A stretch of DNA of 64,000 nucleotides, from positions 62,001 through 126,000 of the forward strand of contig NZ_VNHM01000005.1 of NCBI RefSeq assembly GCF_008124625.1. The letters are read 5' to 3'. Under the pieces are notes generated by a model. That model had not been told where the DNA came from, did not search any database, and saw only the letters and a program-made list of their open reading frames with translations. Below, piece by piece: positions 34,482 to 47,072 of the stretch. The DNA is from Desulfallas thermosapovorans DSM 6562. GTDB taxonomy: Bacteria > Bacillota > Desulfotomaculia > Desulfotomaculales > Desulfallaceae. Numbering within the stretch: the first letter of the stretch is position 1; the number at the start of each line of letters is the position of its first letter. Both the position numbers and the translations under genes were made by a program.

Positions 34482-34565
34482 ATCTTCACACTACCGTAAA
34501 AATACCGATTATTACGGCTGCAAAGTATAACCACACCAATCCTCTCCGTGGGAGGTCATTTATGT

Positions 34566-34755
34566 GTGCAACCCGGGTAGGTCTCCTGACTTATGGTTCA
34601 TTGCACGCCTTTTATCCTTCCCGGTTAAACCGGTGGTAATCAAAAGGTGGCTCGCCATTTACAGTGGCCGGACCGTCCAGGACTTTCACCTGGTTCCCTG
34701 TTATCCCCTGGTAAACTATGTTTAAGCATGCCAGGGGCACCCGAGCGGTAAACTT
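34566..34755 (-). promoter_or_regulatory. Cobalamin (AdoCbl) riboswitch
   Basis: Minus-strand pattern typical of the B12 aptamer, in order: GGGAA, GGTGAAAGTCC, GGACGGTCC, the B12-box core GCCACTGTAAATGGCGAG, GAAGGAT, and ACCATAAGTCAGGAGACCT. It precedes cbiJMNQO and two terminator hairpins, so B12 should switch the operon off. Confidence 0.92.
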
Positions 34756-34865
34756 TGTTATTAGATTATATATATTTGCAATAATAACACATTTATGCCA
34801 TATTGTCCATACTGTAGCGGCATTGATACACCCTGACAACTGTTTCACATGCTTTTAACCGATGA

Positions 34866-37732: not shown

Positions 37733-38368
37733 CTATGGCACTATCCGGCTAAAACCATGCAGGCGTGACCCCCAGTATCCACCGTAAACGGAAGCGGTTT
37801 GCACACCCTGGCTGGAAGTGGCGCTGATAAATTTACCGTCTCCCAGGTAGATACCGATATGATTAATGACACCGCTGCTGAAAGCCACTAAGTCACCTGG
37901 CCTTGCTTCCTGTTTAGATACCCTGGTCCCTCTGTGGAATTGTTCCGCCGCAGTACGGGGTAGATCAATACCCATGTGTTTGAAAACATACTTGACATAA
38001 CCGGAACAATCAAAACCGGCAGGTGTTTGTCCACCATAAACATAAGGCACCCCGGTGAATGATTTTGCATAGCCCAGCAACATGTCGGTACGGCTTGTTC
38101 CCCGGGATACAGTCACCGCTGGAGTTTGGCTTGCAGAGGCATCGGCTGATATGAACAATCGTTGTCCGGGAAATATTAAAGTTGTATATACCGCATTTAA
38201 TTGTTGAATTTGCTGTACTGAAACACCATACTGCCTCGATATTTTCCACAATGTATCACCGGGTTGCACGGTATAATAAGTATCGGCATAAGCCGGTGTA
38301 GCCAGTCCCAACAAGATAGTACCAAAGGCTAAAGCTAAAAGATGTTTCCAAAGTTTTGTCATGTCCAT
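37733..38368 (-). CDS. Secreted LysM-NlpC/P60 peptidoglycan hydrolase
   Basis: 211 aa. Signal peptide (residues 1-28, ending ATPAYA), one LysM domain (about 31-75: YYTVQPGDTLWKISRQYGVS), linker, then NlpC/P60 domain (about 92-210) with catalytic Cys in GFDCSGYV, His in INHIGIYLG and a third polar residue downstream. Cleaves gamma-D-Glu-diaminopimelate bonds in cell-wall peptides in known relatives. Preceded by a c-di-AMP riboswitch, a known regulator of such hydrolases and osmotic genes. Extracellular. Confidence 0.94.
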   Translation of the reverse strand: MDMTKLWKHLLALAFGTILLGLATPAYADTYYTVQPGDTLWKISRQYGVSVQQIQQLNAVYTTLIFPGQRLFISADASASQTPAVTVSRGTSRTDMLLGYAKSFTGVPYVYGGQTPAGFDCSGYVKYVFKHMGIDLPRTAAEQFHRGTRVSKQEARPGDLVAFSSGVINHIGIYLGDGKFISATSSQGVQTASVYGGYWGSRLHGFSRIVP

Positions 38369-38379
38369 GCTCGCTTTCT

Positions 38380-38488
38380 ACACCTACGGGGTTAGCTGGC
38401 GGGTTAGGACCGAAAGGTAGCCCCTTGCTTGTTAGCAATTCACCCCGAGAAATGGTTCCCCCGCTTCCGCAATGCAGGAATTCGGCGT
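38380..38488 (-). promoter_or_regulatory. c-di-AMP riboswitch (ydaO/yuaA type)
   Basis: Minus strand has the ordered conserved blocks CGCCGAATTCC, GCGGAAGCGGGGGAACC, GGGGTGAATT, GGGGCTACC, TCGGTCCTAACCCG and CAGCTAACCCCGTAGGTG. It ends about 12 bp before the LysM-NlpC start, suggesting control of translation initiation or a nearby terminator. Confidence 0.92.
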
Positions 38489-38639
38489 TTAATTTTATGA
38501 TGGTTCATTATTTAATTATTTAGCTGACCACCCCCCATTAATATGGCTATAATGTCAAAATTTACATCCTTGCTATTCTTATGTACGCAGGATAGGTCAA
38601 ATTTTGGAGGGTATTGTCGATAATAATATGCAAAAAAAC

Positions 38640-42582: not shown

Positions 42583-42602
42583 ACATCAAGATTGTATAAA
42601 TT

Positions 42603-42882
42603 CTATGAGGGAGAAAAGTAGGCTGGAAACAGGCCCCCAGGGAGGGAACGTCATCGACTGGAAGCGTTCCCGGGTTATGACCAACTGAAGTTCTCTCCGG
42701 AGAAGCCAGCTGAAACCAATTAGGTAAGTAGGCCAGGACGTATTCCTCCCACGTTACAGGGCAGGGGGTATCGGATTTTATTCCTGTACCTGGCCAAGTG
42801 GATCTATTTTTTAGTTTCAGATCAACTAGGGTGGTAACGCGGTGGTAATGCCTCTCGTCCCTTGGGATGAGAGGCATTTTTG
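42603..42882 (+). promoter_or_regulatory. T-box leader 1 (probable Phe specifier)
   Basis: Full T-box: stem I begins GGGAGAAAAGTA (42609-42620) and closes at TCTCC (42694-42698). The T-box sequence AGGGTGGTAACGCGG is at 42828-42842. A terminator GCCTCTC/GAGAGGC with ATTTTTG is at 42850-42882. The specifier loop reads GAAG-TTC before TCTCC, giving TTC (Phe) at 42691-42693. Confidence 0.85.
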
Positions 42883-44307: not shown

Positions 44308-44342
44308 TATAAGCCCCCTGGTCTAAAACCAGGAGGCTTACT
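44308..44342. terminator. Hairpin between pheA and the 5S gene
   Basis: AAGCCCCCTGGT and ACCAGGAGGCTT form a stem with a five-base loop. T-tracts are weak on both sides; it may end pheA or the 5S transcript. Confidence 0.5.
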
Positions 44343-44350
44343 AAAATAAA

Positions 44351-44545
44351 TTCCGGCAACTACCTACTCTCCTACCCCTCTACCCCTACGGGGCACACGG
44401 CGGGGCACACAGCAGGGCATAAGCCCAAGTACCATCGGCCTTAGAGAGCTTAACTTTCCGTGTTCGCATGCCTGTGCCCCGTAGGGGTATGCCCCGGAGG
44501 GGTAGGATGGGAACGGGTGTATCCTCTCCAGTATGGTCACCGGAA
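44351..44545 (-). rRNA. rrf: 5S rRNA with two large insertions
   Basis: Minus strand has the 5S blocks in order: TTCCGGTGACCATACTGG, ACACCCGTTCCCATCC, CGAACACGGAAAGTTAAGC, GGCCGATGGTACTTGGG, GGAGAGTAGGTAG and TTGCCGGAA. Total about 195 nt instead of ~117. Extra DNA lies at about 44468-44505 (between CCCATCC and CGAACAC, in the helix III/loop C region) and at about 44372-44414 (before GGAGAGTAGG, helix IV/V region). The two inserts are complementary to each other (ACCCCTACGGGGCACA and TGTGCCCCGTAGGGGT). Confidence 0.85.
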
Positions 44546-44582
44546 AACTTTATAAACTTTTAAGGAGTATAAGTTAATTTTT

Positions 44583-44600
44583 CAGGTGCCAGGCACCTTC
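44583..44600. repeat. Palindrome AGGTGCC-A-GGCACCT
   Basis: Perfect seven-base dyad between the 5S gene and the 16S fragment. Similar palindromes are dispersed in some Clostridia genomes; only one copy was seen here. Confidence 0.4.
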
Positions 44601-44670
44601 TTGTTAACTTATTGTTCCCTCAAAAATGCACAGCTTAGCAAGGGTTTATCAAGTAAAGCTTCACCTGCCG

Positions 44671-44927
<257 letters not shown>

Positions 44928-45151
44928 TTGTCCGTTCGTGTCAATGGCAATTTGTGGTTGGTTTATTGGTTCGGTTTAAACAATGTCATTTCCACCATTG
45001 CCCTGACTTGGTTTTTTACGCTGCCACCGTAGCGGCGACATTTGTTATGTTATCATTTTAAATAAAACACTGCAACAGGAGAATTTAGTCATAATTAATA
45101 ATTAATGTATGTTTGTTGTTTCAAATGAAATTTACACCTTCCGTGATATGT
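44928..45151. other. Unassigned intergenic DNA
   Basis: Beyond the 16S break no rRNA, ORF or structured element is recognisable. Confidence 0.5.
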
Positions 45152-46582
45152 TCAATCCTTGCCCTTAATTACCCCCAGTGGTCGAAGTCTTGCTATTTTA
45201 CGGACCATTCCGATGGCGACCAGGGTTTCCACCACCTGGTCAATATCTTTGTAGGCCACGGGTGCCTCATCAAGCAGTTCTTTGTAATTTCTGCTGTTAT
45301 ACAGTACACCCATCATACTGGACTCAAATTGATCCCTGGATATTTCCTTTATGGCAGATTTTCTTGACATCTTCCTGCCGGCGCCGTGATTGGCGGAGTA
45401 AAAAGATTCGGTAGCTTTTTCGGTGCCCGTCAACACATAGGAGGCAGTGCCCATGCTGCCGGGTACCAGCACCGGATGCCCCGTTTCTATGTATGAAGGG
45501 GGGTTCTGCGGGTGTCCCGGGGGAAGTGCCCTGGTGGCTCCTTTACGGTGCACCAGAATTTTTTTGCCATTGTGTTTTTCCCATTTGGCAATATTATGGG
45601 CCACATCATAAACAAGTTTTAGCCCAAGAGTTTCCGGCGGACAGCCAAAAACATCTCCAAAAGCCCTGCGAACATCATGGGTTATCATCTGCCGGTTGGC
45701 AAAGGCATAATTAACTGCGCAAGCCATTGCGGCATAGTAATCCCTTCCTTCTTTGGAATCGACCGGCGCACAGGCCAAGCCCCGGTTGGGCAAGTCAATG
45801 CCATGCCTTTTGGCGGCCCCTAACAGGCTTCTACTGTAATCAGTGCAGATCTGGTGACCGAAGCCCCGGCTTCCAGTATGAATCATTACCGCCAGCATGC
45901 CCGGTAATAATCCGAAGAGATCACCCTCCACACGGGAATAAACCTCCTCAACTATCTGTACTTCAATAAAATGATTGCCCCCACCCAAGGTGCCCAACTG
46001 TTCCTTGCCCCGTTCACAAGCCTTACGGCTCACTGCCTCGAGACTGGCCCCGGAAAGGAATCCCTTTTCCTCGGTATTCTTAAGGTCGTCACTCCAGCCG
46101 CAACCTCTTTCAATAAGAGAACCGGCACCTTGATAGATAACGGATTCAAAAATTTTTCCATCCATATCACGGTGTTTACTTTTTTTACCTATCCCTGTGG
46201 GCACATATTCTTCTATTTTTTGAAGCAATTTGCGTAGCACAGGTATCGGAACTTCTTTTGCTTGAATATTTGTGTTTAAAAGCCTTACCCCGCAGTTAAT
46301 GTCCATGCCTACGGCCCCGGCGGAAATTACTCCGCCCTCCGCAGTGGCCATTACCCCGCCGATGGGCAGTCCAAATCCTTCGTGAATGTCAGGCATACCA
46401 CACACATGCCCTACCACCCCCGGCAGGCTGGCGGCAGCACAAAGCTGCTCCAGGGATTTATCCCTTTTCACCAGGGGCAAAAGATGTTCATTTATAAAAA
46501 CCAACCCGTCTACCTGCATTTCGCCGGTGCGTCTGAGCCGGTACCTGTTTAAACTTTCCTTGAACAAATCCAATTTTAACAC
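45152..46582 (-). CDS. rtcB: RtcB-family RNA ligase
   Basis: 476-aa GTP- and Mn-dependent RNA ligase joining 3'-phosphate (or 2',3'-cyclic phosphate) and 5'-OH ends. Key motifs: MPDIHEGFGLPIGGV near residue 63, GMDINCGVRLL near 93 (metal Cys), LGGGNHFIEVQ near 200, HTGSRGFGHQ near 236 (metal His), and YSANHGAGRKMSR near 395 carrying the histidine that is guanylylated. GTG start, or more likely TTG at 46573 with GGGG 6-8 bases upstream. Archease was not seen. It lies between the rRNA debris and a structured repeat. Confidence 0.94.
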   Translation of the reverse strand: MLKLDLFKESLNRYRLRRTGEMQVDGLVFINEHLLPLVKRDKSLEQLCAAASLPGVVGHVCGMPDIHEGFGLPIGGVMATAEGGVISAGAVGMDINCGVRLLNTNIQAKEVPIPVLRKLLQKIEEYVPTGIGKKSKHRDMDGKIFESVIYQGAGSLIERGCGWSDDLKNTEEKGFLSGASLEAVSRKACERGKEQLGTLGGGNHFIEVQIVEEVYSRVEGDLFGLLPGMLAVMIHTGSRGFGHQICTDYSRSLLGAAKRHGIDLPNRGLACAPVDSKEGRDYYAAMACAVNYAFANRQMITHDVRRAFGDVFGCPPETLGLKLVYDVAHNIAKWEKHNGKKILVHRKGATRALPPGHPQNPPSYIETGHPVLVPGSMGTASYVLTGTEKATESFYSANHGAGRKMSRKSAIKEISRDQFESSMMGVLYNSRNYKELLDEAPVAYKDIDQVVETLVAIGMVRKIARLRPLGVIKGKD

Positions 46583-46959: not shown

Positions 46960-47072
46960 CTCTTATCCGGAGTGGTGGAGGGACTGGCCCTGTGAAGCCC
47001 GGCAACCAGCTTTTGCATTTACCGAAAGTATGGTGCTAATTCCTGCAGAAGTTATCTTCTGACAGATAAGAG
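46960..47072 (+). promoter_or_regulatory. SAM-I riboswitch (S-box)
   Basis: CTCTTATCCGGAGTGGTGGAG, GGGACTGGCCC, TGTGAAGCCCGGCAACC and the closing GATAAGAG match the S-box aptamer. It is followed by a terminator and the homocysteine operon; SAM should switch it off. Confidence 0.93.

Follow-up and report, generated by a model that had tools for sequence, protein, structure and literature searches.

The stretch of Desulfallas thermosapovorans DSM 6562 DNA analysed here (64,000 nt; contig NZ_VNHM01000005.1, positions 62,001 to 126,000; hereafter the window) contains an enlarged 5S rRNA gene, interrupted by two inserts that are complementary to one another. This raises the question of where the inserts originated, whether they pair into a shared structure and whether the gene serves the ribosome. 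The reading that we favour, with a probability of roughly 75%, is that of an old 5S gene in a mostly deleted rRNA operon, which would have been enlarged by repeated insertion of an 18-20 nt hairpin unit and which persists as a passenger copy.

The expanded 5S rRNA gene and its inserts

The gene spans 44351..44544 on the reverse strand (194 nt) and was identified by its match to Rfam 5S_rRNA (RF00001), the complete model (1-120) being matched by 44544-44351 (-) at 76.6 bits, with large inserts. Once both inserts are removed, an intact core of 116 nt remains; within the gene, a single base at the insert 2 junction distinguishes it from C1, a normal copy in this genome. With a length above about 129 nt and all of the conserved core present, the gene belongs among the expanded prokaryotic 5S rRNAs.

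Insert 1 (44467..44504 (-), 38 nt), as delimited by the empty site CATCC^CGAAC of the normal copies, consists of two tandem hairpin units, TACCCCTCCGGGGCA and TACCCCTACGGGGCACAGGCATG, and lies between CATCC and CGAAC in loop C/helix III, at about E. coli position 42-43. Insert 2 (44373..44412 (-), 40 nt) was delimited against the 5S copies C14 and C2, in which the same site holds the single unit CTGTGTGCCCCGTAGGGGTA; it consists of two hairpin units, one within the loop of the other, is inverted relative to insert 1, and is flanked by GCCCTG and GGAGAG on the 3' side of helix IV/loop E, at about 96-98. Both positions are known insertion sites of expanded 5S, and they are identical in D. gibsoniae. 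The full-model match and the two insert sizes bear out the first-pass annotation, which had described a 5S enlarged by two insertions of about 40 nt; it had also correctly placed the second of these at helix IV/V and mentioned enlarged 5S genes of this kind from Clostridia, where they are indeed known.

The same annotation had reported a 16-base exact complement between the inserts. The complementarity stands, but its length is 17 nt, with the block TACCCCTACGGGGCACA of insert 1 (44473..44489 (-)) being the exact complement of TGTGCCCCGTAGGGGTA of insert 2 (44381..44397 (-)). This is beyond chance, since the longest self-complement in 200 base shuffles of the 5S gene had a mean of 8.2 nt and never exceeded 16.

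A single hairpin unit in opposite orientations

A single hairpin unit of 19-20 nt, TACCCCTNCGGGGCACA[C/A]G, makes up both inserts, its copies in one being oriented opposite to those in the other. In the two 155-nt 5S copies of this genome, insert 1 is TACCCCTCCGGGGCACACG (19 nt), whilst insert 2, taken from the opposite strand, reads TACCCCTACGGGGCACACAG (20 nt); these represent one near-palindromic unit in reversed orientations, each foldable as CCCC-NNN-GGGG, and the two inserts of these copies are near-perfectly complementary to each other. The complementarity between inserts 1 and 2 arises because both are inverted copies of one imperfect palindrome, and judged by its sequence it is a by-product of opposite-facing unit copies, not a designed arm. 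Exact matches to the unit in this genome are confined to its three expanded 5S genes. A role for the unit as a genome-wide repeat here was considered and rejected, as the inspected non-5S matches were plain sequence without unit boundaries.

Other 5S copies in the genome

Six 5S genes are present in this genome of 2.96 Mb (48 contigs): three are of normal size (115-116 nt; C17, C31 and C1), two are of 155 nt (C14 and C2), and one, that of the window, is of 194 nt. The 155-nt copies carry single-unit inserts at the same two sites as the window copy and are situated within regular operons, C14 directly 3' of a 23S end and C2 beginning right at such an end. In both, the 5S leader is nearly that of the normal copies and a terminator-like hairpin follows the gene, although two changes in C2 produce mismatches in helix IV. 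The first-pass annotation had allowed that the other 5S copies might be normal and only the window copy degenerate; this held by half, in that three copies are normal, whereas two contain simpler paired inserts in regular operons.

Expanded 5S genes in related organisms

The 5S gene of D. gibsoniae DSM 7213 (G005) at 1760679-1760831 has an insert 1 identical to that of the 155-nt copies and an insert 2 that differs from theirs in one base of the loop. In the same organism, the gene at 1812738 has inserts at site 1 (that of insert 1) and at a third site, close to where helices II and V meet, with site 2 empty, whilst the 262-nt gene at 1557019 has all three sites filled, with several layers of nesting. 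Sporotomaculum syntrophicum FB (G004) carries inserts at all three sites, D. geothermicus (G010) one unit at the third site, and genome G002 an insert at site 2 only. The unit was also found in another family, represented by G039 (4.55 Mb, one contig), which we take to be Desulfofarcimen acetoxidans; one of its 5S genes has site 1 and one further position occupied by the unit, and in a second gene only the latter position is filled. An expanded 5S gene of G039 sits between 16S and 23S, not after 23S.

Several 5S remnants were observed in addition. At 1799916 of D. gibsoniae, 23S is joined to the 3' part of a 5S alone, with a unit at site 2, and a degenerate 5S in another genus of the family (G007:C60) has two tandem units at site 2. 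In G002:C6, two 5S 3' remnants lie 4.6 kb apart with a 12-nt change inside the unit, a pair that may reflect recent unit turnover within one genome.

Filled and empty sites, and spread beyond 5S

Filled and empty 5S sites were found to differ by whole units, of 19 nt at site 1, 20 nt at site 2 and 18-19 nt at site 3. The same precision applies to nested units. A D. gibsoniae insert holding CCGTGTACCCCGAAGGGGTG (20 nt) has its empty counterpart in the D. geothermicus 5S insert CTTGTGCCCG^GAACGGGTG, and the first unit of the window copy, TACCCCTC^CGGGGCA, is the empty form of a site that is filled in D. gibsoniae 1812738 (19 nt). Most insertion sites read pyrimidine-C^C in the orientation of the unit, and no target duplication was seen at the filled and empty sites compared.

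Units were also found outside rRNA genes. In an unrelated dispersed repeat of D. geothermicus (~280 nt), a 19-nt unit is present in four copies and missing from three at the same point. Dispersed repeats of D. reducens (G077) likewise contain units, and this organism also has an expanded 5S at 361111-361315; in G056, G038 and G075, units occur in repeats or in a tandem array. The array of G075, in which hairpin units are joined by GA linkers outside rRNA, resembles a REP cluster. Across 113 genomes of the order, a generalised form of the unit (18-20 nt, GC-rich, TACCC[C]NNN[G]GGGCACA..G) gave about 156 matches versus about 27 for a reversed control, and therefore the unit family is order-wide, whilst the exact 5S form hardly occurs beyond this genus. 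A mobile element is recognised by copies that share their ends at unrelated sites and by matching empty sites, and these comparisons suggest that the unit is mobile.

The insert 1 junction, in a scan of the genome collection, was recovered from S. syntrophicum only, besides unrelated single matches. The exact unit was rejected as a phylum-wide motif, since 399 sampled genomes returned this genome and one match in a permease-like coding sequence. Among IMG/VR contigs there were two unit matches, one of them extending to 21 nt; the reverse strand of viral contig IMGVR_UViG_3300024429_000021, near 1442, contains TACCCCTACGGGGCACAGGCA, a 21-nt identity with the second unit of insert 1.

Do the inserts pair with each other?

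It had been proposed at first pass that the two inserts might either form an extra long arm or each fold alone. An arm that functions in the ribosome or in regulation would account for the perfect 17-nt complement here and the near-perfect one in the 155-nt copies, and is strongly favoured by free-energy prediction. The free-minimum fold, in which insert 1 is paired with insert 2, was calculated at -101.5 kcal/mol, relative to -51.0 kcal/mol for the Rfam core pairs combined with local hairpins (helix IV tip left out); folded singly the inserts gave -14.4 and -17.7 kcal/mol, so that pairing with each other scores better. However, for the normal 5S copies the program does not return the canonical fold either, and its energies are for that reason weak evidence. 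The zipped fold retains helix I only, and 9 of the 32 core pairs, with the other 23 broken. The two ends of each insert are attached to the core at a single point, so that complete pairing between the inserts and a folded core are mutually exclusive. Relatives with one insert alone exist as well (D. gibsoniae 1812738 and G002), and any two copies of a palindrome will be complementary in any case. Topology and the relatives with a single insert weigh more than the energies, and on these grounds, together with the loss of the core helices, the zipped arm was rejected; we consider it very improbable.

Folding of each insert alone, into a local hairpin compatible with the core, is the best-supported reading, and the inserts would be expected to fold in this way in the cell. 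If the RNA is made, local hairpins forming co-transcriptionally would be the form compatible with function, with zipping a hazard of misfolding.

A remnant operon around the window copy

Upstream of the gene is a 5S leader of a second type (44545..44642 (-)), found by sequence comparison and blastn to be common to D. gibsoniae 1557019 and 1812738 and to G002, and absent from the normal copies of the same genome. This leader contains a GGTGCCTGGCACC hairpin at 44584-44598, as does that of G002. Beyond it is a 256-nt 16S rRNA gene end with its 3' end missing (44671..44926 (-); RF00177), 95-96% identical to the 16S 3' ends of relatives; it stops before the anti-Shine-Dalgarno, and no 23S is present between it and the 5S gene. 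The adjoining rRNA promoter/leader remnant (44927..45075 (-)) was recognised by aligning it to the sequence preceding the D. gibsoniae 1557019 and S. syntrophicum C5 operons; 44925-45059 aligns with the region ~330 nt upstream of 16S in the D. gibsoniae operon ending at 1557019, and also with the S. syntrophicum equivalent. A promoter-like TTGCAG-17-TAACAT has been kept at 45075-45047. The equivalent region of relatives has a second, stronger promoter-like TTGACA-18-TACAAT, of which the window keeps TTGACA at 44944-44939, its TACAAT being gone at the deletion junction. Directly 3' of the 5S gene is a terminator-like hairpin (44311..44339 (-)), near-identical to that of C17.

The window copy does not lie in a complete operon with promoter, 16S and 23S. 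Given the loss of 16S and 23S, the promoter remnant, and the leader common to the operons of relatives, the locus looks like an old rRNA operon of the second type from which most of 16S and all of 23S have been lost. Going by these features, its 5S gene is probably a weakly expressed passenger, which would be transcribed at a low level and contribute little, if anything, to ribosomes. Immediately upstream of the remnant operon, and likewise on the reverse strand, is a gene for an RtcB-like RNA ligase (45152-46582 (-); identified by eye in the translated sequence), from which read-through transcription into the operon could come. The window also contains a T-box leader (42596-42865 (+)), and SAM (46960-47072 (+)), c-di-AMP (38365-38497 (-)) and cobalamin (34559-34759 (-)) riboswitches.

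Origin of the expansion and alternative explanations

The unit structure, the precise filled and empty sites, the nesting, the further copies here and in relatives and the remnant operon can be read directly from the sequences, and a simple course of events may be proposed from them. One unit would have entered at CATCC^CGAAC and a second, in inverted orientation, at the opposite site, CTCTCC^C; units arriving later would have been added in tandem or within the loops of earlier units, such that each insert would then fold alone as a hairpin, or as a hairpin in a hairpin. Some observations sit uneasily with this account. A dead gene would not be expected to retain an intact core, save where gene conversion had homogenised it in recent times; template switching over short stretches could look like precise insertion; and the zipped fold is much more stable on paper, making misfolding possible.

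Template switching is also a live rival to mobility in its own right. Under such a scheme the units multiply by replication errors alone, through switching between nearby quasi-palindromes and 5S gene conversion, and no mobile element is involved. Most boundaries do have short microhomology (YC at one edge and C or CG at the opposite one), clear tandem slippage is seen in D. gibsoniae 1557019, where AAGGGGTA is repeated, and inverted copies are typical of template switching. Against this, complete units with identical ends are also present in dispersed repeats of unrelated sequence and between genes of other genomes, and a member of another family (G039) has one at the very same 5S site; we regard an origin by replication errors alone as somewhat unlikely. 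For the wider proposal, that an ultrashort mobile hairpin (18-20 nt) of the Desulfotomaculum group, inserting precisely and mostly at pyrimidine-C^C without target duplication, nesting within itself and preferring 5S, may have produced expansion segments, we judge the chances to be even.

It is improbable, in our view, that the expanded 5S RNAs are functional and provide the cell with two kinds of ribosome. The intact core would be in keeping with this, as would the conservation of the 155-nt form in D. gibsoniae and its occurrence at two of the five regular operon ends, with a normal-type 5S leader and terminator-like hairpins. However, the window copy is without the -10 of the stronger promoter, C2 has its two helix IV mismatches, and insertion at 42-43 was judged to be blocked by uL5 in the main text of Stepanov and Fox (PMC7812874), where 96-98 was regarded as mildly constrained. 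An assembly or sequencing artefact might be suspected given that the draft assembly breaks at rRNA operons and that C14 and C2 are at contig starts; with the window copy in the middle of a 180-kb contig, and the same inserts found both in S. syntrophicum and in D. gibsoniae, whose genome is a single contig, this can practically be dismissed.

Comparison with known systems

A literature search for such repeats in Desulfotomaculum found none, and the unit was compared with systems described elsewhere. REP/BIME elements are ~20-nt hairpins that occur in direct and inverted clusters, are essentially intergenic, and are mobilised by RAYT (Y1/HUH) transposases. The 5S unit is similar in size, in its direct and inverted clusters and in having intergenic copies, but unlike REP it is found inside a structural RNA gene and nests in its own loops. 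A single-strand hairpin transposase would fit as a candidate mover. Intervening sequences of 16S and 23S rRNA, which are excised by RNase III, resemble the 5S inserts as rRNA-gene inserts able to fold back, though the local stems of the latter (~4-8 pairs per hairpin) are short for a typical RNase III substrate.

Expanded 5S genes were described from D. gibsoniae, D. acetoxidans and D. geothermicus by Stepanov and Fox in 2021 (PMC7812874), whose main text gives coordinates including D. gibsoniae 1812738-1812949 and 1557019 and D. geothermicus 126967-127097. The window gene is a new length variant of this known class. It is like the Peptococcaceae examples treated there (D. gibsoniae DSM 7213 and Desulfofarcimen acetoxidans) in its insertion regions, in the coexistence of normal and expanded copies and in the damaged operons that are common amongst them, and differs in its length and in its combination of tandem and nested units. 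That main text suspects expanded 5S to be pseudogenes or to have extraribosomal roles, and regards the inserts as self-paired modules of largely independent origins; one unit common to sites, genes and families is not stated in it. What is new relative to the main text is that the unit is shared, that it nests and is used in inverted form at several sites, and that it has relatives outside 5S. Bacterial 5S expansion segments were catalogued in 2021 without an account of their origin, whereas here their source is readable as one self-nesting unit at several sites and genes in two families, which offers a testable way for rRNA to acquire such segments.

Among systems described elsewhere, the mitochondrial palindromic GC clusters and hairpin elements (yeast GC42, PMC4478555; sponge RHE, PMC2800124; Volvox palindromes, PMC2670323) behave most similarly. 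Like the 5S unit, these are short non-coding hairpins that merge with one another, some of them inserting into rRNA genes, and in the yeast GC clusters, as in the unit, variation is concentrated in the loops. The 5S unit differs in its bacterial hosts, its length of 18-20 nt, the absence of target duplication at the sites compared and its concentration in 5S genes. It may represent a bacterial counterpart to the mobile mitochondrial GC clusters and, if it is mobile as proposed above, would rank with the smallest mobile DNA units recorded from bacteria.
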